NCBI RefSeq assembly: GCF_024172165.1
Contig: NZ_JAMZEB010000002.1
Span: 10,805,001-10,869,000, forward strand
Length of the DNA: 64,000 bases
Direction: 5' to 3'
DNA from: Nonomuraea thailandensis
Lineage (GTDB): Bacteria; Actinomycetota; Actinomycetes; Streptosporangiales; Streptosporangiaceae
Position 1 is the first letter of the stretch, and every line of letters starts with the position of its first letter. The notes beneath the pieces were generated by a model. The model was not told the origin of the DNA. It was given only the letters and a program-made list of their open reading frames with translations, and did no database searches. Shown here in pieces: positions 1 through 39,384 of this stretch. The position numbers and the translations under genes were made by a program.

Positions 1-2063
<2,063 letters not shown>

Positions 2064-2190
2064 AAGCATTGTGCTTGGTGTGTGCTGCGCTCTGTTACTC
2101 TTCGCCGGGTCCAGAGCTGCGCCGCATCAAGGTACTTCTTGCTCGCGTCCACTACGCAATTCTGAGACAGCAAACAGGCTGTTTCGCAGG

Positions 2191-2309
2191 GTTACGGCGG
2201 TTATGGCGGGAAGGAAACACCCGGTTACATTCCGAACCCGGAAGTTAAGCTTCTCTGCGCCGATGGTACTGCACTCGGGAGGGTGTGGGAGAGTAGGTCA
2301 CCGCCGGAC
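2191..2309 (+). rRNA. rrf: 5S ribosomal RNA
   Basis: A 119-base segment has the actinobacterial 5S pattern. The 5' end GTTACGGCGG pairs with the 3' end CCGCCGGAC, and the internal CCGAACCCGGAAGTTAAG is the conserved loop B/C segment. It follows 23S rRNA on the same strand and is followed at once by a strong terminator, so it closes the rRNA operon. Ends are set from the terminal helix and may be off by a base or two. Confidence 0.97.
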
Positions 2310-2323
2310 AATCTTTATGGGAA

Positions 2324-2361
2324 GGGCCCCGACCAGCACCGGTCGGGGCCCTTTCGTGTTT
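2324..2361 (+). terminator. Rho-independent terminator of the rRNA operon
   Basis: An 11-bp perfect stem (GGGCCCCGACC with GGTCGGGGCCC), a 6-base loop and the T-rich tail TTTCGTGTTT lie 14 bases after 5S rRNA. This is the expected end of the rrn transcript. Confidence 0.93.
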
Positions 2362-3114
2362 CTGGGGCTCTGCACTGGTCTCCCTGGGGCGGTACTGTCG
2401 GGCAGTCTCGCGGGGCGCCGGCGGAGCAACGGTCTTCCTTCTTGCTCGTGCTGGGAAGAGCGGTTGTGGGTCAAAGCCGAATGCTCTGGAGACGTTGCCG
2501 ACTGAGCATGCTGCTGTGGCTGTCCTGCAGCTGTCCGGCCTCCAGCCTGTCCGGGTTCGGTCTGTCCGGGGTTCGGTTGTCCCGGCTTCAGTCGTCCGGG
2601 CTTCAGCTGTCCGGCTCGGCTCGGTGTCCATGCGGGCGAGCGAAGCGGCGCAAGGCCTTTGTCGTTTGACCACGCGTGCCTGTGGGTCATCGCCGACAGA
2701 GGATCAGGAACTTACGGATCTCCACTTGCTTCGGCTTCATCCATGGGCCTGGTGCCCGGGAGAGCGGGTGAGGATGCTCTCGTCGGTTCGAGTAGACGCC
2801 TGCGCCATCAGTCCCTGACGTAGGTGAGCGGAAGTCGGCCGCCAGCCTCACCGGCCAAGCTTGTCTGCCAGCCTCTCGCGTGCGGGCGCTGCTCTCGGCC
2901 GCCTGCTGCTGTCGTACAGCCGTATCAGGCTCTTGGAGGGGAGGACGGCTTCCCTCGCTCCGTGCCTTCAGCGAGGGGGAGAGCTGGAGGCTCTCAGGCC
3001 TTCCTCCGGACGTGAGCGGCTTGAGTCGTCACCTGGATGCTGGATGCGATCGTTCAGCGGCTCGGACGCGGCAGGCCGGACAGGCGGCACACTTTGCCGG
3101 GCGGCTCTGTTCGG
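2362..3114. other. Gene-free stretch downstream of the rRNA operon
   Basis: About 750 bases contain only overlapping Arg/Pro/Ser-rich open frames with no ribosome binding site, no recognisable protein pattern and no consistent third-position bias. I see no gene, RNA or mobile element here. It holds the TGTCCGG repeat listed separately. Confidence 0.6.
2530..2625. repeat. Degenerate ~16-bp tandem repeat with TGTCCGG core
   Basis: Five to six diverged copies of a unit of about 14-17 bases share the core (C)TGTCCGG followed by GTTCGGT or CTTCAGT. They run from CTGTCCGG at 2531 to CTGTCCGG at 2607. No gene is associated with the array. Confidence 0.7.
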
Positions 3115-3879
3115 CTACACGTGCAGTGTGCCGGACAGGACGGTGACGGCTCGGCCGGTCAGGTGGACGCGGTCCCCCGCGTGGGTCACGTGGACGAGGC
3201 CGCCTCGGGGCGAGAGCTGAGCGCCCACGAGCGTGAGCCGGCCGAGGCGGGCCGACCAGTACGGGGACAGGGCGCAGTGGGCCGAACCCGTCACCGGGTC
3301 CTCGGGCACCCCGACCCTGGGGGCGAAGAAGCGGGAGACGAAGTCGGTTTCGGTGCCGGGCGCCGTGACGATGACGCCTCGGGCGTCCACGTCCGCCAGG
3401 GCGGCGATGTCGGGGGCCAGCGACCGTACCGTCTCCTCTGACTCCAGCTCGACCAGCAGGTCGAGCTCGCTTTTCCCGACCCGCACCGGAGTCACGCCGA
3501 GGGCTTTCTCCAGCCCGTCGGGAACGGTGGCGGGGGTCACGTCCTTGGCCGGGAAATCCATTGTGATCATGCCGTCGGGGCGACGATTCACGGTAAGCGT
3601 CCCGCTCGCGGTGTTGAATTCGAGCTGCCCGTCCGCCGCGCCGGTCGAATAGAGGACGTGGGCGGTGGCGAGCGTGGCATGGCCACACAGCGTGACCTCC
3701 ACGGCCGGAGTGAACCAGCGGAGGGAATCTCCGAGCAGGAAGGCGGTCTCGGAGAGGTTCATCTCGGTCGCTACGCTCTGCATCCATCGCTCAGTAACCG
3801 GAGTGTCCAACAGGCAGACGGCGGCGGGATTACCCTGGAAAGCTGAGTCGGTGAAGGCGTCGACCGTGAAGAGGCGCAT
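3115..3879 (-). CDS. PhzF family isomerase/epimerase
   Basis: The 254-residue product belongs to the PhzF / diaminopimelate-epimerase-fold family, cytoplasmic enzymes whose best-known member isomerises a phenazine precursor. Family marks are VDAFTDSAFQGNPAAVCLL at the N-terminus, the catalytic-type Glu44 in NLSETAFLL, GHATLATAHVLY near residue 67, and DPVTGSAHCALSPYW near the C-terminus. I start it at the ATG that gives MRLFTVDAF; a 13-residue upstream extension looks unlike the family. No phenazine genes surround it, so the substrate is unknown. The gene stands alone, transcribed away from the SepF-like gene. Confidence 0.9.
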   Translation of the reverse strand: MRLFTVDAFTDSAFQGNPAAVCLLDTPVTERWMQSVATEMNLSETAFLLGDSLRWFTPAVEVTLCGHATLATAHVLYSTGAADGQLEFNTASGTLTVNRRPDGMITMDFPAKDVTPATVPDGLEKALGVTPVRVGKSELDLLVELESEETVRSLAPDIAALADVDARGVIVTAPGTETDFVSRFFAPRVGVPEDPVTGSAHCALSPYWSARLGRLTLVGAQLSPRGGLVHVTHAGDRVHLTGRAVTVLSGTLHV

Positions 3880-4047
3880 GTGGCAGATGGTATACGGGGG
3901 TCGGATATCCAGCTGCAAGCAGGCTGCAAGCCGTACAAAATGGAATTAGGGCTGGGCGTGTCGCGTGGCGAATGCGGAATCGTCGGTTACCGTCCAATGT
4001 GTAGGGACGTGCCGATTACGGTGAGTTCCTGAGGAAAGGACAAGCCG

Positions 4048-4431
4048 ATGGGGGCAGTGCGCAAGGTGGTGAGCTACCTTGGCCTGAGCGGGGTCGATCA
4101 CTACGACGAGGGCTATGACGACGACGAGCAGTACGAGGACGAGTACGTCCCGGCCACGGAGCGGGCTGCCCGGCGGTGGCGCGCGAACGTGGACTCGTCG
4201 CGGATCGTTATGGTTCAGCCGCTCAAGTACAACGACGCACCGTTGATCGGCCAGCACTTCCGAGACGGTCAGACGGTGATCATGGACGTGACGGGCATGT
4301 CGATGCCAGAGGCGACGCGGATGGTGGACTTCGCCGCCGGGCTGGCCTTCGGCTGTGAGGGGCGGATCGAGCGCATCGCCGAGCGCGTCTTTCTCCTCGC
4401 CCCGGCTCACGTGGAGATCGAGACCACCTGA
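4048..4431 (+). CDS. SepF-like cell division protein
   Basis: The 127-residue product matches the SepF/YlmF family, which tethers FtsZ to the membrane. The N-terminal segment MGAVRKVVSYLGLSG resembles the amphipathic membrane helix. An acidic linker (about residues 18-35) follows, and then the SepF core from about residue 45, with VQPLKYNDAPLIGQHF, a VIMDVTGM strand and VDFAAGLAFGCEGRIERIAERVFLLAP. An AGGAAAGG ribosome binding site lies about 8 bases before the ATG. It is not beside ftsZ or other dcw genes, so it is probably one of the extra SepF-like (Sfl) paralogues that actinomycetes carry besides the dcw-linked copy. It is a single-gene unit closed by a hairpin. Confidence 0.92.
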   Translation: MGAVRKVVSYLGLSGVDHYDEGYDDDEQYEDEYVPATERAARRWRANVDSSRIVMVQPLKYNDAPLIGQHFRDGQTVIMDVTGMSMPEATRMVDFAAGLAFGCEGRIERIAERVFLLAPAHVEIETT

Positions 4432-4453
4432 GCACATAGTACGAGCTGACCAT

Positions 4454-4485
4454 GAGGAACCTGCCCCGACCCGGGCGGGTTCCTC
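4454..4485 (+). terminator. Terminator-like hairpin after the SepF-like gene
   Basis: GAGGAACC pairs with GGTTCCTC around a GC-rich loop that can extend the stem. It starts 23 bases after the stop codon. The tail is short (ATCGCGTTTG). Confidence 0.75.
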
Positions 4486-4555
4486 ATCGCGTTTGTGCCC
4501 CTTGTGCCCCTTGTCTCAAGGGGCGGGGCCGCGAGGTAGCGGCGATCCGATCAGG

Positions 4556-5040
4556 TTGGCTTGTCAGGCGGCGGCCTGCTCAGGGTGCGTCTGTGAGGGT
4601 GACGGTCCGTAGGGCGGGCTTGCGAGGTGGCGGTCTGCTCAGGACCGGCCTGCGCGATGGCGCTTCGGTCAGGGACTCGCGAGGTGGTGGAGCTGGGCGG
4701 CTTCCCTCGGAGCGGGCAGCCCCGGAGCGGGCGTTGGGGCCGTCCGATGCGGACGACGCCGGGCATCGATGCTGCACGCTGCGCACCGATGCTGCACGCT
4801 GCGCAGCGATGTGGCAAGCCAGCCTGCCGCCCCGGCCCCGCACGTCTGCCTGGGGGCGCGTCCTGATGGTGGGCGGCGACCGTGGCGCGGGGCCCGTGGC
4901 GCGTGCCCGTGACGCGTAGACCGTGCGGGCCCGTCACGTGCGGGTGCGGCGCTTGGCCGAGCAGCCGAGCAGCCCAGCAGCCCAGCAGCGCGGCAGCCGA
5001 GCAGCGGAGGTGTCGAGCAGCGGAGGTGTCGAGCGGAGTG
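4556..5040. repeat. Gene-free stretch of several short tandem repeats
   Basis: The 560 bases between the SepF-like gene and the next gene contain no credible coding frame. They are a patchwork of short diverged repeats. Two copies of a ~60-bp block with GGCGG(C/T)CTGCTCAGG lie near 4570 and 4630. A 20-bp unit CCGATGCTGCACGCTGCGCA occurs about 2.5 times at 4765-4815. CCCGTGGCGCGT-type units lie near 4880-4940. GAGCAGCC/GGAGGTGTC units fill 4958-5037. The array stops just before the stop codon of the leftward gene. Confidence 0.7.
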
Positions 5041-5047
5041 GGTGGGG

Positions 5048-6400
5048 TCAGTGGGCGGCGCGGGGGCCGCGGCGGATGAGGCGGGTCAGTTCGGCCGCGT
5101 CCTCCGTGGCCTGGATCGCCCGGGCGTCCGCCTCGTGGGCGTACGCGTGCAGCGCCCAGACCGCCCCCTCCGCCAGCTCCTTCAGCTCGTTCACCTGGCC
5201 CGCGACGTACCGGGCGTCGGCCTCGACGAGCTTGCGGCGCTGCCAGAGCTGCCAGCCGGCGAGGCCGATCATGGCGACCGCGGCCGCGGCGAGCAGATGG
5301 GGGCCGAGTGCGGCGCCGACGAGGCAGGCGACGCCCGCGACGATCAGCACCAGGGCGGCCCAGGGCCGGCCGCGCGGGACCATGCCCTCCGCGAGGATCG
5401 ACTCCTCGGCGGCGGCGAGCGAGGCCTGGTCGGGGCCCTCGGGGCGCAGGTGGATGCGGTGGCCGAGCAGCGGGACCGTGAGCGTGGCGGGGGGTTCGAG
5501 GCGGCTGTCGGCCTCGAGCTCCTCGGCCACGCCGCGCAGGATGGGCGCGGCCACGTGCAGGGCGATGGCCGCCAGGTGCGGGTCGGCGCCGGGGCGCAGG
5601 TCGTCCAGCAGGTACGTGCTGAGCGAGGCCATCGGCCCGGCGGGGCCGCCCTGGCCGATCAGGGTGCGCAGGACGGCGAGCGGCTCGTCCTCGGCCCAGG
5701 TCGCGGCCGGGGCGGCGGGGCTGTTGTCGAGCGGGGCGGCGGAGTCGTGCTCGGACTGCCGTGCCGAGGTGATCTCCGCGCACCGCCCGCGCAGCCGGGC
5801 CAGCCGGGCGGCGGCCACGGCGGGCCGGGCCAGCTCGGGGATCTCGGCCATCTCCGGGAAGTCGGCCAGCGACGGCGGCACGACGACGGAGGGCTCGCCG
5901 GGCACGAGTGCCTGCACCCACTGCTGCGGGTCGGCGTGCTCCTGGACGGCCAGCGCGTCGAGCTTGCGCAGCACGAAGATCTTGCCGGCGGGCCCGTACG
6001 CGCCCCTGGCGGCGGCCAGCCACAGCGAGCGCTGGCCGTGGGAGACGGGGCGGTCGAGCGACAGCTCGCCGAACGCGGTGCCCAGCCAGGACGCATGGAT
6101 GCGGCTGCCCTGCCCGGACACCGCCAGCGCCAGGCAGAGGAAGAGCGCGGTCTGTTGCTGGTCGCGGCCGGCGGCCCGGCTCAGCGGCTCCAGCGGGTCG
6201 TCGCCCGCCAGGATGGCGACCAGCGCTTCGAGGGCCGGGGGCAACCAGTAGCCCGGTACGTCGCGAAAGCTCGGTGCGGCCGGAGGCGCGGTGCCCTTGG
6301 CGGCGAGGTGCGCCAGCAGCGCCTCGGCGTAGCGATGCAATTCGGTCGCTGCTGGGGGGCTCGCAGTCAGGTCCGTGCTCAAGGCAGAGAACTCCCCCAT
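5048..6400 (-). CDS. Hypothetical protein with two C-terminal membrane segments
   Basis: I do not recognise this 450-residue protein. The first ~340 residues are Ala/Leu-rich and probably helical and soluble, with no signal peptide. Two adjacent hydrophobic segments follow at about residues 344-386 (ALVLIVAGVACLVGAALGPHLL and LAAAAVAMIGLAGWQLW). A charged helical tail (RRKLVEADARYVAGQ...) suggests a membrane-anchored protein with cytoplasmic domains. The ATG at 6400 gives MGEFSALSTDL. Codon use is typical of the window. It is transcribed in the same direction as argS and ctpE, but a hairpin separates it from argS. Confidence 0.8.
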   Translation of the reverse strand: MGEFSALSTDLTASPPAATELHRYAEALLAHLAAKGTAPPAAPSFRDVPGYWLPPALEALVAILAGDDPLEPLSRAAGRDQQQTALFLCLALAVSGQGSRIHASWLGTAFGELSLDRPVSHGQRSLWLAAARGAYGPAGKIFVLRKLDALAVQEHADPQQWVQALVPGEPSVVVPPSLADFPEMAEIPELARPAVAAARLARLRGRCAEITSARQSEHDSAAPLDNSPAAPAATWAEDEPLAVLRTLIGQGGPAGPMASLSTYLLDDLRPGADPHLAAIALHVAAPILRGVAEELEADSRLEPPATLTVPLLGHRIHLRPEGPDQASLAAAEESILAEGMVPRGRPWAALVLIVAGVACLVGAALGPHLLAAAAVAMIGLAGWQLWQRRKLVEADARYVAGQVNELKELAEGAVWALHAYAHEADARAIQATEDAAELTRLIRRGPRAAH

Positions 6401-6439
6401 TTCGGCCTCAGTTCATGACCGCGTAAAGCCTAGCCGTTA

Positions 6440-6468
6440 GGGCGCGCCAACCCGGTGGAGGCGCGCCC
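6440..6468 (-). terminator. Hairpin downstream of argS
   Basis: A perfect 9-bp inverted repeat (GGGCGCGCC / GGCGCGCCC, 11-base loop) lies 35 bases beyond the argS stop codon. It lacks a T-run, as many actinobacterial terminators do. Confidence 0.5.
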
Positions 6469-6502
6469 ACGACGGAACGGGAGACTTTGAGCCAACTGCC
6501 TG

Positions 6503-8254
6503 TTACATGCGCTCGGGGACAGGGACGCCCAGAAGGTCGAGCCCCGTCTCCAGCACCCGCAACGTCAGCGCGCACAGGGCCAGCCGGGAGGCGCGGATGG
6601 CGGGATCGGCCTCCTTGAGCACCGGGCACTGCTCGAAGAAGTCGGTGAAGGCGGAAGCGGTGGCGTAGAGGTAGGCGCACAGCCGGTGCGGCTCGCTCGT
6701 CGCCGTCGCGTGCTCCACCACGGCGCCGAAGCCGAGCAGTTGCAGGGCCAGGGCCCGCTCGGCCGGCGCGCCGATGACGATGGGCTCGGTCGCCGTGGCG
6801 CGGTCGATTCCGCCCCTGCGGAAGATGGAGCGGATGCGGGCCTGGGCGTACTGCAGGTAGGGGCCGGTGTTGCCGGTGAAGGCCACCATGCGGTCGAGGT
6901 CGAAGACGTATTCGCTCTCGTGGCTGACCGACAGATCCGCATATTTCACCGCGGCCATGCCGACGGCGTGCGCGATCTCGGCCCGCGTCTCGTCGCCGTA
7001 CTCCCTGTCGGCGGTGGGGGCGGCGGCCTCCCGCTCGGCGATCAGCGCGGCGGCCCGATCGATGGCCGACTGCAGCAGGTCCATCAGCTTGACGGACTCG
7101 CCGGAGCGGGTCTTGAAGCGGCGGCCGTCCTTGCCCAGCATCATGCCGATGCGCACGTGCTCGGCCGAGGCGCTCTCGGGCAGCCAGCCCGCCTGCCGCG
7201 CCGCGGCGAACACCATCTGGAAGTGCAGCGCCTGCTCGTTGCCCACCACGTAGAGCATGCGGTCGGCCTTGAGGTCGTGGACGCGGTAGCGGATGGCCGC
7301 CAGGTCGGTGGTGGCGTAGCCGTAACCGCCGTCGCTCTTCCTGATGATGAGCGGCAGCGGCTTGTCGTCGGAGCCGGTGAAGCCGGGCGGGAACACGCAC
7401 AGCGCGCCCTCGCTGATCACGGCCGTGCCCGCGGCCTCCAGGTCGTCGCAGGTCTTCTGGAGCATGGGGTTGTACATGCTCTCGCCGGCGATGTCGGCGT
7501 CGGTGAGCGTGACGCCGAGCAGGTCGTAGACCTTGTTGAAGAAGCGCACGGTGGCGTCCATGAAGACGTGCCAGAGCCGCAGCGTGTCGGGGTCGCCCGA
7601 CTGCAGGGTGCTGACCCGCGCCCGCGCGCGCGTCTTGAACGCCTCGTCGGCGTCGAACTTGGCCCGCGCCGCCTGGTAGAACTCGGTGCCCTGGCCGGCT
7701 TTGAGCTGCTCGACCGCGGCCTGCTCGCCGATGTCGAGCAGGTGCTCGATGAGCATGCCGAACGGGGTGCCCCAGTCGCCCAGGTGGTTCTGCCTGATGA
7801 CCTTGTTGCCGAGGTGCTCGTGCAGCCGGGCCAGCGAGTCACCCACGATCGTGGTGCGCAGGTGGCCGACGTGCATCTCCTTGGCCGCGTTGGGCGCGGA
7901 GTAGTCGATCACGACGGTCTGCGACGGCGTGATCGTGCCGACGCCGAGGCGCGGGTCGGCCAGCATCTGCCGGGCCTCGGACTCGATCCACGCGTCGCCG
8001 AGCGTGATGTTGAGGAAGCCCGGGCCGCTGACCTCGATCGTGCCGGGGAAGTCGGACAACTCCGCAGCGATCGCGTCGGCGACCTCCCGCGGGGACCGTC
8101 GCAGGCGCTTGGCCAGGCTCATCGCGACGTTCGCCTGGAAGTCGGCGAACTGGGAGGGCCGGATCAGCGGATCTGCGTCGGCGTGCTCCGGACCGAACGC
8201 GCGAGCCAGCGCCTGCTGGACGCGCTCGGTGAGCACAATCTGCGGGTCGGTCAT
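6503..8254 (-). CDS. argS: Arginyl-tRNA synthetase
   Basis: This class I aminoacyl-tRNA synthetase (583 residues) charges tRNA-Arg in the cytoplasm. The N-terminal Add1-type domain includes SGPGFLNITL. The HIGH-type signature is HVGH (residues 128-131) in VDYSAPNAAKEMHVGHLRTT-like context (here VIDYSAPNAAKEM). GMMLGKDGRRFKTRSG occupies the KMSK loop position, which is degenerate in most ArgRS. The C-terminal anticodon-binding domain ends CALTLRVLETGLDLLGVPVPERM, a typical ArgRS terminus. Its ATG overlaps the stop of the upstream ATPase gene by 4 bases (ATGA), so the two are probably co-transcribed and translationally coupled. Confidence 0.97.
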   Translation of the reverse strand: MTDPQIVLTERVQQALARAFGPEHADADPLIRPSQFADFQANVAMSLAKRLRRSPREVADAIAAELSDFPGTIEVSGPGFLNITLGDAWIESEARQMLADPRLGVGTITPSQTVVIDYSAPNAAKEMHVGHLRTTIVGDSLARLHEHLGNKVIRQNHLGDWGTPFGMLIEHLLDIGEQAAVEQLKAGQGTEFYQAARAKFDADEAFKTRARARVSTLQSGDPDTLRLWHVFMDATVRFFNKVYDLLGVTLTDADIAGESMYNPMLQKTCDDLEAAGTAVISEGALCVFPPGFTGSDDKPLPLIIRKSDGGYGYATTDLAAIRYRVHDLKADRMLYVVGNEQALHFQMVFAAARQAGWLPESASAEHVRIGMMLGKDGRRFKTRSGESVKLMDLLQSAIDRAAALIAEREAAAPTADREYGDETRAEIAHAVGMAAVKYADLSVSHESEYVFDLDRMVAFTGNTGPYLQYAQARIRSIFRRGGIDRATATEPIVIGAPAERALALQLLGFGAVVEHATATSEPHRLCAYLYATASAFTDFFEQCPVLKEADPAIRASRLALCALTLRVLETGLDLLGVPVPERM

Positions 8255-33202: not shown

Positions 33203-34627
33203 TTAGGTGAGCGCCTCGAGCTGGGTCGCGAGCCACTTCTGCGGCGGCAGCGCGGTGGCGGCGGCGTGCAGCTTGTCGCGGCGCGTGCGGCGCTCGTCCT
33301 CCGGCATGACCAGCGCGTCGTGCAGCGCGGCGGCGGTGCCGCTGATGTCGTAGGGGTTGACCACGAGCGCGTGCGCGCCGAGCTCGGCGGCCGCGCCCGC
33401 CTCGCGCGAGAGCACCAGCGCGCACCGCGGCGACAGGACCGGGCCCTCCTTGGCGACCAGGTTCATGCCGTCGCGGATGGGGTTGACCAGCAGCACGTCG
33501 GCCATCCGGTACGCGGCCAGCGAACGCGGGTAGTCGTCGTTGACGTTGAGGATCAGCGGGTCCCAGTCCTCGGTGGCGTACTCGTCCTCGATCTGCCGGG
33601 CGCAGCGCTGCACCGACGCGGTGTACTCGCGGTATTCGGGCAGGTCGTGGCGGCTGGGGTAGGCGAAGGCCAGGTGCACGACCCGGCCGTGCCACTCGGG
33701 GTGCGCGGCGAGGAACTCGCGGTAGGCGATCAGGCCGCGCACGATGTTCTTCGACAGCTCGGTGCGGTCGATGCGCACGATCAGCTTGCGGTCGCCGACC
33801 TGCTCCCGCAGCGCGGTCATGTGCGACTCGACGTCCGGCTCGCAGGCCCGCTGCCACAGGGCGTCGCCGTCGACGCCCAGGCTGTGCACGCCGATGCGGG
33901 TCGTCCTGCCCTCGTACGTGACGCTGCGCCCCACCCGGTCGGCCTCCGCGCCCAGGAGCCGCTCGCAGCAGTCCATGAACGCCTGCGCCCACCTGTCGGT
34001 GAGGAACCCGGCGTGATCGGCCCCCAGGATGCCCTCCAGGACCTCCCCGGCCACGTCGTCGGGCAGCAGCGAGAAGTACTCCGGCGGCGCCCACGGGGTG
34101 TGGCTGAAGTGCGCGATGCGCAGGTCGGGCCGCTCGGCGCGGAGCATGGCCGGGGTCAGTGTCAGATGGTAGTCCTGCACCATCACGCGGGCGCCGTGCC
34201 CGGCCTCCTCGGCCAGCGCCAGCGCGAACGCGCCGTTGTAGTCGCGGTACGACTCCCACTCGCGCTCGAACCTGGTGCCGAAGTTGGGCGAGTTCGGGAT
34301 GTCGTAGAGCAGGTGGTTGACGAACCACAGGGTGGAGTTGGCCACGGCGTTGTAGGCGCGGTGGAAGGTGGCGGGCGGGATGTCCAGCATCCGCAGCGGG
34401 CCGGTGTCGTAGCCCGCGTGGTCGATGCGGCCGCCGGTGGCCAGCCGGACGGCGATGCGGTCGCCGTCGGACAGCGCGGCGCAGACCCACAGCACGCCGT
34501 CGTCCTTGGCCACGCCCGACAACCCCGAGACGAGGCCGCCGCCGCCGCGTCTCATCGTCAGCTCGCCGTCGTCGGAGACGGTGAAGGACACAGGCCCTCT
34601 GTTGGAGGCCAGCAGGACGCTGTTCAT
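33203..34627 (-). CDS. otsA: Trehalose-6-phosphate synthase
   Basis: This GT20 glycosyltransferase (474 residues) makes trehalose 6-phosphate from UDP-glucose and glucose 6-phosphate. Marks are LLASNRGPVSF at the N-terminus, GGGGLVSGLSG (the sugar-binding loop), VMVQDYHLTLTPAMLRAERP, AHFSHTPWAPPEYFSLLP, RIDRTELSKNIVRGLIAYREFL and the C-terminal DGMNLVAKEG. Together with OtsB it forms the trehalose stress-protectant pathway. It is divergent from the sigma factor gene with 31 bases between the starts, so their promoters must overlap the coding regions or each other. Confidence 0.95.
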   Translation of the reverse strand: MNSVLLASNRGPVSFTVSDDGELTMRRGGGGLVSGLSGVAKDDGVLWVCAALSDGDRIAVRLATGGRIDHAGYDTGPLRMLDIPPATFHRAYNAVANSTLWFVNHLLYDIPNSPNFGTRFEREWESYRDYNGAFALALAEEAGHGARVMVQDYHLTLTPAMLRAERPDLRIAHFSHTPWAPPEYFSLLPDDVAGEVLEGILGADHAGFLTDRWAQAFMDCCERLLGAEADRVGRSVTYEGRTTRIGVHSLGVDGDALWQRACEPDVESHMTALREQVGDRKLIVRIDRTELSKNIVRGLIAYREFLAAHPEWHGRVVHLAFAYPSRHDLPEYREYTASVQRCARQIEDEYATEDWDPLILNVNDDYPRSLAAYRMADVLLVNPIRDGMNLVAKEGPVLSPRCALVLSREAGAAAELGAHALVVNPYDISGTAAALHDALVMPEDERRTRRDKLHAAATALPPQKWLATQLEALT

Positions 34628-34658
34628 CTCGGCTCCCTTCGATCATAGGATCCCAGCT

Positions 34659-35213
34659 ATGGCGCTTGATGAGCTAACCGAGGAACTCGCCCGCTCCGCT
34701 GCTGCGGGAGATCATCGCGCACTTGGCGAGCTCCTCGCGCGGATTGAGCCGGATGTGATGCGGCACTGCGCCCGGATCCTCCCCTATCACCAGGACGCGG
34801 AGGAGGCCTCGCAAGATACGTTGCTGGCGGTGGCGCGCAACATCGGGCGGTTCGAGGGTCGCGCCAGGTTCAGCACGTGGCTGCACATCGTGACGGCCAA
34901 CTGCGCGCGCACCACGTACCGGTCGCTGAAGCGCAGGGCGGCCGAGCAGACCTCCGACGAGTTGCCCATGCAGAAGCCCGACGTGCGGCGGGTCAGTGTG
35001 ATCGCGGGGTCGCGGCTCGATCTGCTCGACGCGATGGAGGCGCTGGAGGCCGACAAGCCGGATCTGGCGCAGGCGCTGGTGCTGCGTGACATCGTCCAGC
35101 TCGACTACAACGAGGTGGCCGAGCAGCTCAACATCCCGCTGGGCACGGCGAAATCGCGGATCCATCAGGCCCGCAAATACGTGCAGGGTGTGCTGGGCGA
35201 GGACTATCGCTGA
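34659..35213 (+). CDS. ECF-type RNA polymerase sigma factor
   Basis: The 184-residue protein has sigma region 2 (DAEEASQDTLLAVARNIGRF and RARFSTWLHIVTANCARTTY) and region 4 (ALVLRDIVQLDYNEVAEQLN, then IPLGTAKSRIHQARKYV), with no region 3, as in extracytoplasmic-function sigma factors. The ATG at 34659 gives MALDELTEELARSAA; longer readings run through the otsA start region. No anti-sigma factor gene is adjacent, which is unusual for ECF factors and suggests control by another means. It may regulate otsA, which is divergent from it, but that is a guess. Confidence 0.92.
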   Translation: MALDELTEELARSAAAGDHRALGELLARIEPDVMRHCARILPYHQDAEEASQDTLLAVARNIGRFEGRARFSTWLHIVTANCARTTYRSLKRRAAEQTSDELPMQKPDVRRVSVIAGSRLDLLDAMEALEADKPDLAQALVLRDIVQLDYNEVAEQLNIPLGTAKSRIHQARKYVQGVLGEDYR

Positions 35214-35294: not shown

Positions 35295-35432
35295 CTCATC
35301 CAGAGGGGTGGAGGGACCGGCCCTGCGAAGCCCCGGCAACCCTCCCGGCTTTCGACTCGCGACCTGGCGAGGCCGACCGGGACAAGGTGCCAATTCCGGT
35401 TCGCGGTCAAGGTGGCCGTGGGCGAAGATGAG
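35295..35432 (+). promoter_or_regulatory. SAM-I (S-box) riboswitch
   Basis: The leader has the S-box core in order. Helix P1 is CTCATC (35295-35300) with GATGAG (35427-35432). Then come CAGAGGGGTGGAGGGACCGG, GGCCCTGCGAAGCCCCGGCAACC-type P2 (GCCCCGGCAACC), a variable P3, the GGTGCCAATTCC core at 35387-35398, and a P4 hairpin before the closing GAAGATGAGG. The 3' strand of P1 runs straight into the ribosome binding site GAGGGAAGG, and no separate terminator is visible. When SAM binds, P1 forms and should lower translation of the downstream gene. The match to the family consensus is by eye. Confidence 0.93.
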
Positions 35433-35447
35433 GGAAGGCCTCGCTTC

Positions 35448-36683
35448 ATGTCGCTCGACTTTGGTCCTGCCGTCGCTCTGTCCTGCCGCGAGTGCGGTGC
35501 CCGCTACCCGCTGGGCCCGAGCTTCGCCTGCCAGGAGTGTTTCGGGCCGCTGGAGGCGGCCTACGACTTCGGTGACGTGACCCGCGCGGAGATCGAATCG
35601 GGTCCCGCGAACATCTGGCGTTACCGCTCGCTGCTGCCCGTTCCCGCGGACGTGGCCAGTAAGCCCAATATGAACCCCGGTTGGACCAAATTGGTCAAGG
35701 CCGGAAACCTGGGTCGCGCCCTCGGCATCAAGTCCCTTTACGTGAAGGACGACTCGGGCAACCCCACCCACTCCTTCAAGGACCGGGTCGTGGCCATGGC
35801 CGTCGAGGCGGCCCGCAACTTCGGCTTCCACACGCTTTCCTGCTCCTCCACGGGCAACCTCGCCGGCGCCGTCACCGCCGCCGCCGCGCGCGCCGGGCTC
35901 GACGCGTGCGTGTTCATCCCGGCCAACCTCGAGAAGGCCAAGATCGCCATGGCCCGGGTGTTCGGCGGGCGGCTGATCGGCATCGACGGCACCTACGACG
36001 AGGTCAACCGGTTCTGCTCGGAGCTCATCGGCGACCCCATGGGCGACAAGTGGGGCTTCGTCAACGTGAACCTGCGGCCCTACTACGCCGAGGGCTCCAA
36101 GACGCTCGCGTACGAGATCGCCGAGCAGCTCGGCTGGCGGCTGCCGGAGCAGATCATCATCCCCATCGCCTCCGGCTCCCAGCTCACGAAGATCGACAAG
36201 GGCTTCAAGGAGCTGGTGAAGCTGGGCCTGGTGGAGGACACCCCGTACAAGGTGTTCGGGGCCCAGGCCCTCGGGTGCTCGCCGGTGTCGACGGCCTACA
36301 AGGCCGGGCACGAGGTCGTGCAGCCGGTCAAGCCCGACACCATCGCCAAGTCGCTGGCCATCGGCAACCCCGCCGACGGGCCGTACGTGCTGGACATCGC
36401 CCGGCGCACCGGAGGTGCCGTCGAGGACGTCACGGACGCCGAGATCGTGGCCGCGATGAAGCTCCTGGCCTCGACCGAGGGCATCTTCGCCGAGACCGCC
36501 GGCGGGGTCACCGTCGGCGTGCTGAAGAAGCTCACCGAGAACGGGGTGCTCGACCCTGAGGCCGAGACCGTGGTGCTCAACACCGGCGACGGGCTCAAGA
36601 CGCTCGACGTGCTCACCGGTGAGTCCGTCGAGCCCACCGCCGTGATCAAGCCCTCTCTCGACGCGTTCCGCGCGACTGTCTGA
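35448..36683 (+). CDS. thrC: Threonine synthase-like PLP enzyme
   Basis: The 411-residue fold-type II PLP enzyme is of the threonine synthase family, which acts on O-phosphohomoserine. An N-terminal zinc ribbon (Cys13, Cys16, Cys28, Cys31) is followed by the PLP lysine Lys111 in PTHSFKDRVV and the phosphate loop SSTGNLAG (133-140). ETAGGVTVGVLKKL near the C-terminus is also typical. The context is not that of the usual hom-thrC-thrB operon. It sits behind a SAM riboswitch and before a MoaD-like carrier gene. A sulfur-transferring role (homocysteine from O-phosphohomoserine and a carrier thiocarboxylate) is a real alternative; see findings. The ATG at 35448 follows GAGGGAAGG. Confidence 0.88.
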   Translation: MSLDFGPAVALSCRECGARYPLGPSFACQECFGPLEAAYDFGDVTRAEIESGPANIWRYRSLLPVPADVASKPNMNPGWTKLVKAGNLGRALGIKSLYVKDDSGNPTHSFKDRVVAMAVEAARNFGFHTLSCSSTGNLAGAVTAAAARAGLDACVFIPANLEKAKIAMARVFGGRLIGIDGTYDEVNRFCSELIGDPMGDKWGFVNVNLRPYYAEGSKTLAYEIAEQLGWRLPEQIIIPIASGSQLTKIDKGFKELVKLGLVEDTPYKVFGAQALGCSPVSTAYKAGHEVVQPVKPDTIAKSLAIGNPADGPYVLDIARRTGGAVEDVTDAEIVAAMKLLASTEGIFAETAGGVTVGVLKKLTENGVLDPEAETVVLNTGDGLKTLDVLTGESVEPTAVIKPSLDAFRATV

Positions 36684-36707
36684 CAACCAGGAAAGGCGAT
36701 TAGAACC

Positions 36708-36983
36708 ATGAGCGTTTCTGTGCGGATTCCCACCATTCTGCGCACGTACACCGGGGGGAACGCGGAGGTCAGTGGCGAAGGCGCGACTCTTCGTGACGTG
36801 CTCGCCAAGCTCGACTCCGACTACCCGGGGATCGGCGCGAGAATTCTGGATGAATCGGGCAAGATTCGTCGTTTCGTCAACGTTTACGTTGGGGAAGAGG
36901 ACGTCCGTTTCGCCGAGGGGCTCGACACTCCAGCCCCTGAGGGCACTCAGATCTCCATCATCCCGGCGGTCGCCGGCGGCTGA
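36708..36983 (+). CDS. MoaD/ThiS family sulfur-carrier protein
   Basis: The 91-residue ubiquitin-like protein starts MSVSVRIPTILRTYTGG and ends in the free Gly-Gly (IIPAVAGG) needed for C-terminal thiocarboxylation. LDSDYPGIGARILDESGKIRRFVNVYVG is the conserved middle (the stretch around residues 34-60). It is 24 bases downstream of the threonine-synthase-like gene and ended by a terminator, so both belong to the riboswitch-controlled transcript. No molybdopterin or thiamine genes are nearby. The partner is therefore most likely the preceding PLP enzyme, as CysO is for CysM in mycobacteria. Confidence 0.93.
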   Translation: MSVSVRIPTILRTYTGGNAEVSGEGATLRDVLAKLDSDYPGIGARILDESGKIRRFVNVYVGEEDVRFAEGLDTPAPEGTQISIIPAVAGG

Positions 36984-37006: not shown

Positions 37007-37038
37007 GAAGGCGCCCCTAGTGGGCGCCTTCTCCTTTT
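37007..37038 (+). terminator. Terminator after the carrier-protein gene
   Basis: GAAGGCGCCC pairs perfectly with GGGCGCCTTC around a 5-base loop, followed by TCCTTTT. It ends the riboswitch operon 23 bases after the stop codon. Confidence 0.88.
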
Positions 37039-37229: not shown

Positions 37230-37430
37230 GTGGCGCAGGGCACCGTCAAGTGGTTCAACGCGGACAAGGGCTACGGCTTCATCGCGGTAGACGGTGGTAA
37301 GGATGTATTCGTCCATTACTCAGCGATCATGATGGACGGGTACCGCTCTCTCGAACAGGGGCAGCGTGTCGAGTTCGAGATCACGCAGGGCCAGAAGGGG
37401 CCGCAGGCGGAGTCCGTCCGCGCGGTCTGA
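37230..37430 (+). CDS. Cold-shock protein, CspA family
   Basis: The 66-residue single cold-shock domain has both RNA-binding motifs, KGYGFIAV (RNP1) and DVFVHYSAI (RNP2). It starts at GTG with AGAGGAG about 9 bases upstream. It is an RNA chaperone of the cytoplasm. Its place between the MoaD-like gene and groEL is the order I recall from Streptomyces chromosomes. It is probably transcribed alone from its own promoter. Confidence 0.95.

Positions 37431-37692: not shown

Positions 37693-39384
<1,692 letters not shown>

Follow-up and report, generated by a model that had tools for sequence, protein, structure and literature searches.

A gene for an enzyme that resembles threonine synthase, followed by a gene for a small sulfur carrier protein, raises the question of what product such an enzyme forms and whether the carrier takes part in forming it. 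The pair lies in a window of 64,000 nucleotides (the whole stretch of DNA that was analysed, to which the positions below refer unless another locus is named) from the soil actinomycete Nonomuraea thailandensis. The preliminary description of this DNA proposed that the enzyme makes homocysteine from O-phosphohomoserine and a protein thiocarboxylate, and mentioned reports of a ThrC-like methionine enzyme with a carrier in Streptomyces. Such a report exists: the homocysteine synthase MetM of S. albulus, with its carrier MetO and a SAM riboswitch, was described by Hasebe et al. 2024 (Appl Environ Microbiol e01247-24, as cited in PMC12172450) and is discussed in the accessible part of PMC12172450. 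An enzyme similar to threonine synthase and a small sulfur carrier thus constitute a recently described two-gene route to homocysteine, the precursor of methionine. The pair examined here is very probably the Nonomuraea orthologue of MetM-MetO, with a predicted route from O-phosphohomoserine and a thiocarboxylate to homocysteine; the earlier proposal is supported in substance, with the substrate and the carrier dependence as predictions. The system itself is already described and the present locus is a further member of it, in Nonomuraea; what the present analysis adds are the riboswitch at this locus, the counts of gene context across the phylum, a Met-type T-box, a string of sulfur carrier genes at one locus, and a link to Acidimicrobium.

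The two open reading frames, the 24-base gap between them and the Gly-Gly end of the 91-residue carrier are exactly as first described. The metM gene (35448-36683, plus strand, ATG start) encodes a PLP enzyme of 411 amino acids that is threonine-synthase-like according to family models, the tree and relatives, and is a putative O-phosphohomoserine-dependent homocysteine synthase; metO (36708-36983, plus strand) encodes a ThiS/CysO-type carrier with the C-terminus IIPAVAGG, assigned through Pfam, solved relatives and the kept pairing. The claim that a terminator follows the pair stands in part: a hairpin of 10 bp with a T-rich tail (37007-37031, plus strand) resembles an intrinsic terminator and folds better than its own shuffles (z = -4.0), but the terminator consensus scan gives one site in the region compared with a mean of 1.6 in shuffles of the region. 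On the other side of metM, and divergent from it, lies an otsA-like glycosyltransferase gene (GT20; 33203-34627, minus strand), and downstream of the pair are the genes for a cold-shock protein (37230-37430, plus strand; Pfam CSD) and GroEL (37765-39384, plus strand; Pfam Cpn60), all three being conserved neighbours by synteny, with the first likewise identified through Pfam. An ORF for an ECF-type sigma factor with an uncertain start (34425-35213, plus strand; Pfam sigma70 r2 and r4 on 34503-35210) is outside the metM-metO unit.

The assignment of the enzyme to the ThrC type, made already in the preliminary description, is borne out by the match to the thrC model TIGR00260 (268 bits, above the curated cut-off of 167), and the lysine named there, Lys111, corresponds in the alignment to K61 of Thermus ThrC; Pfam PALP matches as well. 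Passing TIGR00260 is of little weight for threonine synthase function because MetM is ThrC-like by descent. Another threonine synthase model, NF006050, matches MetM over nearly the full length but below its cut-off (264 bits against 303), and the match to the cysteate synthase model is weak (50.8 bits, cut-off 324.9). The putative zinc ribbon proposed earlier is in line with the invariance of Cys13, Cys16, Cys28 and Cys31 in 33 aligned relatives. The AlphaFold model of MetM (pLDDT 83.7; below 50 at residues 106-108, 298-300, 302-307 and 381-388) finds its best structural matches among ThrC chains, 2zsj first, which shows the ThrC fold only.

Within that fold, MetM forms a group of its own. The MetM clade comprises 105 sequences and leaves all 14 others outside (FastTree support 0.87); the outsiders are 10 ThrC loci, the ThrC of N. 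thailandensis (also among the 10), its proteins L002 and L004, and IlvA, and two MetM fragments shorter than 380 amino acids (L193 and L194) were left out of the tree. MetM falls outside the ThrC clade and lacks several of its conserved residues: at columns conserved in both groups, Thermus T88, R160, N188 and R242 correspond to L138, Y213, S242 and A304 of MetM, and K61 is kept as K111. We take T88, R160 and N188 of Thermus ThrC to touch the phosphate of the substrate. Among the best 80 of 568 confirmed matches (the named set), the nearest relatives are those of Nonomuraea jiangxiensis and N. longispora (91% identity), and named Streptomyces loci are 73-79% identical, with one match per genome. 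All eight sampled genomes of a family taken for Streptomycetaceae (f3) have one MetM orthologue each, with the sole SAM riboswitch found located upstream of the gene, so that the gene is firmly identified as metM, orthology having been judged against the named Streptomyces loci rather than the S. albulus sequence itself.

The best clue to the role of MetM is a SAM-I (S-box) riboswitch aptamer (RF00162; 35293-35434, plus strand; 68.7 bits, gathering score 44.4), which stops 13 nt before the metM ATG and went without mention in the preliminary description. SAM, a product of methionine, is what these riboswitches sense. The metM leader is the only match found to RF00162 in the 13.8-Mb genome, with 150 of the 598 first-look candidates scored. 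The expression platform (35427-35450, plus strand) consists of the 3' strand of P1 (GAUGAG), a purine-rich Shine-Dalgarno-like stretch, CCUCGCUUC and the start codon, and is nearly identical in 11 of 11 leaders (the one studied here and those of ten relatives taken for Streptosporangiaceae). P1 and a GAGG/CCUC hairpin are mutually exclusive and about 2 kcal/mol apart in the computed folds, so that folding does not settle the ON/OFF direction; the ligand-free minimum free energy fold misfolds the aptamer. Because the metM leader has no U-run after the riboswitch, it probably acts at the level of translation, and the off-with-SAM sense is adopted here because SAM-I switches usually behave in this way. 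At another locus (L143), a T-box leader (102.9 bits) takes the place of the SAM riboswitch directly before the genes for MetM and the carrier; where the Rfam alignment places the specifier, we read the triplet as AUG, and this T-box seems to read Met codons. Leaders of two unrelated kinds thus tie the enzyme to methionine. The carrier encoded at the same locus (4362-4640, genome G233) contains a run of phenylalanines and ends in AVAWG, possibly an assembly error or a sign of decay.

The N. thailandensis genome also encodes an ordinary ThrC, and its gene is followed by that of a GHMP kinase read as ThrB and then by rho. The second thrC in a hom-thrB operon that had been anticipated is accordingly present next to a ThrB-like gene, but no hom gene was seen among the ORFs neighbouring thrC. 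The companion expectation, that metX, metY, metA and metB would be missing, held for metA, for which PF04204 gave no match in the genome, and failed for the rest: metX and metY lie side by side, and genes for cystathionine gamma-synthase and cystathionine beta-synthase are present too. The metX product scores 482 bits with NF001209 (cut-off 331) and 429 bits with TIGR01392, below the cut-off of 500. Given metX and metY, the MetM route would therefore run beside the O-acetylhomoserine route rather than as the sole route. A separate cluster holds mec, cysO and cysM side by side, and a ThiF-rhodanese protein of the MoeZ type is encoded as well; Thr_synth_N (PF14821) had no match in this genome.

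Further relatives of these proteins occur in the same genome. Protein L002 (C2:3781841) is ThrC-like and 65% identical to ThrC, and L004 (C2:9472004), another relative of ThrC, is far from both MetM and ThrC in the tree. The region L042 (C2:4466000-4477000) encodes, at 62-6792, a PALP-family PLP protein, a ThiG-family protein, a transporter-like ORF and an OtsA-type GT20 protein, and holds in addition a CysO-like carrier ending in AVAGGA and a protein similar to FAD-binding monooxygenases; we take it to resemble a 2-thiosugar/2-thiotrehalose cluster of the BE-7585A type.

Across the phylum, MetM is present in 107 of the 296 sampled Actinomycetota genomes (N. thailandensis included), with one match each at E <= 1e-100, and the 106 other proteins are 50-79% identical to the one studied here. 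About 3 kb on each side, less at contig ends, was fetched for all 106 loci, which were scanned directly for riboswitches. At 71 of these loci (72 of 107 with that of N. thailandensis), the aligned start is preceded on the same strand, at a distance of 11-274 nt, by a SAM riboswitch, and a carrier gene follows directly, within 241 nt, at 81 (82 of 107); both features occur at 61 of the 106 and neither at 15. The 25 loci with no carrier nearby include some that run into the end of a contig (L115, L154, L190, L191, L238 and L249), which were counted as misses although absence there says little. They also include all 13 loci of family f16 (for example L136, L127 and L130), which have neither riboswitch nor nearby carrier; 12 of these 13 genomes have a separate ThrC, and the neighbours listed for 6 of the 13 loci gave no lead. 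Because of these 25 loci, f16 included, some MetM members may use another sulfur donor. A separate ThrC (E <= 1e-70) is found in 102 of the 107 MetM genomes, and in the other five (G058, G097, G149, G274 and G275) the best ThrC match scores like MetM itself.

In the named set (best 80 of 568), the SAM core text pattern, counted with no background control, occurs within 400 nt upstream at 80 of 80 loci, and a carrier within 400 nt at 78, the two misses lying close to contig ends (72 and 76 nt away); with the carrier kept in 78 of 80 relatives, the pairing with the enzyme is therefore not due to chance. GroEL is encoded near MetM at 71 and OtsA at 78 of these 80 loci (best 80 of 568), compared with 23 and 22 of the 106 fetched loci, where these counts come from short flanks and orientation is confirmed in part. 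This synteny speaks for old vertical inheritance.

MetO matches ThiS (PF02597, 56.8 bits), and its closest solved relatives are CysO (3dwg, E 3.8e-25) and 4n6e. The carriers of the named loci all score closer to the N. thailandensis MetO than to its CysO (78 of 78), but only 52 of 82 do so in the phylum set (N. thailandensis included), and MetO and CysO are therefore not separable in deep lineages. An exact Gly-Gly end is present in 54 of the 81 complete carriers of the phylum set, again with that of N. thailandensis. Among the named loci (L195-L274, best 80 of 568), 20 of the 80 carriers beside MetM have Gly-Gly-Cys as their C-terminus, as does the CysO-cysteine adduct, the substrate of Mec, and a JAMM protease might therefore mature such carriers.

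A long string of genes, all in one direction, is found at locus L165 of genome G244: metM is preceded by genes for an ATP sulfurylase domain, a TauE-type transporter, a JAMM protease and a ThiS-CysM fusion, and is followed by genes for a carrier with the C-terminus AIAGGETDV, a ThiF E1, a NIL protein and one PP-loop protein. This set, found at one locus of the 106, corresponds to the needs of a carrier cycle, namely E1, carrier, acceptor enzyme and release protease; the tail of the carrier beyond Gly-Gly would need trimming. The fusion protein (1804-2952 of this locus) joins a ThiS domain to a CysK/CysM-type enzyme, that is, carrier and acceptor in one protein. Genes of the sulfite reductase family lie near MetM at L192, L131 and L143, the latter two of which also have a carrier, and these neighbours leave room for direct use of sulfide; at L181 (f47), a relative of L192, an aconitase-like gene is downstream and no sulfite reductase was found there.

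The proposed cycle, in which substrate, sulfur donor, release step and switch direction are inferred, has its basis in the genes, the riboswitch, the terminator-like hairpin, the Streptomyces orthology, the separate ThrC, the MoeZ-like, Mec-like, CysM and CysO genes and the conserved context. A MoeZ-type E1 with a rhodanese domain would adenylate and thiocarboxylate the C-terminal glycine of MetO. MetM, with PLP bound to Lys111, would eliminate the phosphate of O-phosphohomoserine, and the MetO thiocarboxylate would add at the gamma carbon, whereas in the ThrC reaction water is added to the beta carbon. The resulting MetO-homocysteine would then rearrange, and a JAMM protease of the Mec type would cleave it, releasing homocysteine for methionine, and SAM binding to the riboswitch would lower translation of metM-metO and close the loop.

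This reading has to be weighed against others. MetM could be a second threonine synthase next to which the carrier serves elsewhere, in molybdopterin, thiamin or cysteine synthesis. The enzyme does pass the thrC model, and a Microcystis relative (51.6% identical to S. albulus MetM, next to a carrier but lacking a riboswitch) acts in vitro chiefly as threonine synthase and deaminase, which counts against the homocysteine reading of MetM; the authors of that study doubt full MetM function in cells, according to the accessible text (PMC12172450). However, N. thailandensis already has a ThrC beside a ThrB-like kinase, a separate ThrC occurs in 102 of the 107 MetM genomes, the gene is preceded by a SAM riboswitch at 72 of 107 loci and at one by a T-box whose specifier we read as Met, and the swaps at the Thermus T88, R160, N188 and R242 columns are conserved, so that a second threonine synthase is quite improbable. 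An enzyme of this fold might instead use its carrier for another product, such as cysteine, a sulfonate compound or a secondary metabolite. The versatility of PLP fold type II, the weak cysteate synthase match and the use of Gly-Gly-type sulfur carriers by thiosugar enzymes lend this idea some appeal, but the SAM-type and Met-type leaders, the housekeeping context otsA-metM-metO-groEL and the single match per genome make it extremely unlikely.

The alternative closest to the preferred reading, that MetM is a homocysteine synthase acting on free sulfide, with MetO as an optional partner or a storage device, is unlikely but deserves consideration. It would account for the loci without a nearby carrier and for the sulfite reductase-family neighbours, and the Microcystis relative assayed with Na2S gave an unidentified peak near methionine, as reported in the accessible part of PMC12172450. 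Against it stand the carrier genes directly downstream at 82 of 107 loci and at 78 of the 80 named ones (best 80 of 568), and the addition of E1 and JAMM genes to the same string at L165. Three identities were rejected: a plain duplicate of threonine synthase, given the separate ThrC, the SAM and Met leaders, the separate clade and the residue swaps; a CysM/CysO locus, as the enzyme is ThrC-like, outside the CysK/CysM subfamily, and the mec-cysO-cysM set is elsewhere in the genome; and a thiamin or molybdopterin carrier identity for MetO.

The predicted MetM-MetO route may bear on a gap named in 2018. The iron-oxidising bacterium Acidimicrobium ferrooxidans (DSM 10331) was listed as having neither the traditional, nor the DUF39, nor the protein-thiocarboxylate route, with homocysteine synthesis unknown, and for the absence of these routes the accessible part of PMC5764234 is the source. 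Genome G080, taken to be A. ferrooxidans, encodes MetM (3053-4369 of its locus L112) and a carrier ending in SVVPAVAGG (2742-3083), with a SAM riboswitch (60 bits), GroEL downstream, a divergent GT20 gene upstream and a separate ThrC match (2.9e-111). The gene order is common to G080 and the Nonomuraea window, the latter adding the sigma-factor ORF and the cold-shock gene in between. MetM-MetO is, then, a testable candidate for filling this gap. A limited literature search found no paper joining MetM and Acidimicrobium, a link that the 2024 MetM paper may make. Whether MetM-MetO is an ancient system, inherited vertically in an otsA-metM-metO-groEL block, that provides the missing route of A. 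ferrooxidans and goes back to a deep sharing of one carrier, E1 and JAMM protease by CysM and MetM, with a later split of CysO and MetO, seems evenly balanced when all parts are taken together. The NCBIfam models still call the MetM family threonine synthase, so that many genomes may have their methionine pathways misinterpreted, the family being present in over a third of those sampled.

Compared with known systems, MetM shares with ThrC (TIGR00260; 2zsj, 1uim) the fold, the PLP lysine, about 34% identity to the solved proteins and presumably the substrate, but forms a separate clade with the four Thermus positions swapped; the aligned part of 1uim and 2zsj lacks its N-terminal Cys4 region, which is nevertheless not unique to MetM because NF006050 matches nearly the full length. 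The thiocarboxylate-dependent methionine route of Wolinella (Krishnamoorthy and Begley 2011, as cited in the accessible parts of PMC6271081, PMC6225789 and PMC5764234) likewise draws the sulfur of homocysteine from a protein thiocarboxylate, but its enzyme is an O-acetylhomoserine sulfhydrylase of the MetY type, with another fold, rather than ThrC-like. The cysteine cycle of Mycobacterium, CysO-CysM-Mec-MoeZR, resembles the proposed one in that a PLP fold II enzyme draws its sulfur from a carrier ending in Gly-Gly, phosphate is the leaving group, the E1 has a rhodanese domain and a protease releases the product (accessible part of PMC3227635); its acceptor is O-phosphoserine, in a beta replacement, whereas that of MetM would be O-phosphohomoserine, with replacement at the gamma position, and N. 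thailandensis keeps its mec-cysO-cysM set apart. The S. albulus system, as presented in the accessible part of PMC12172450, has the same ThrC-like enzyme, adjacent sulfur carrier and upstream SAM riboswitch; the host differs, being here a Nonomuraea relative, and in the N. thailandensis genome, the one inventoried here, metX, metY and cystathionine gamma-synthase genes are present as well. The sequence features by which the pair belongs with MetM-MetO are found at this locus and in its genome: a ThrC-like enzyme orthologous to that of Streptomyces, an adjacent Gly-Gly carrier, a SAM riboswitch and a separate ThrC.
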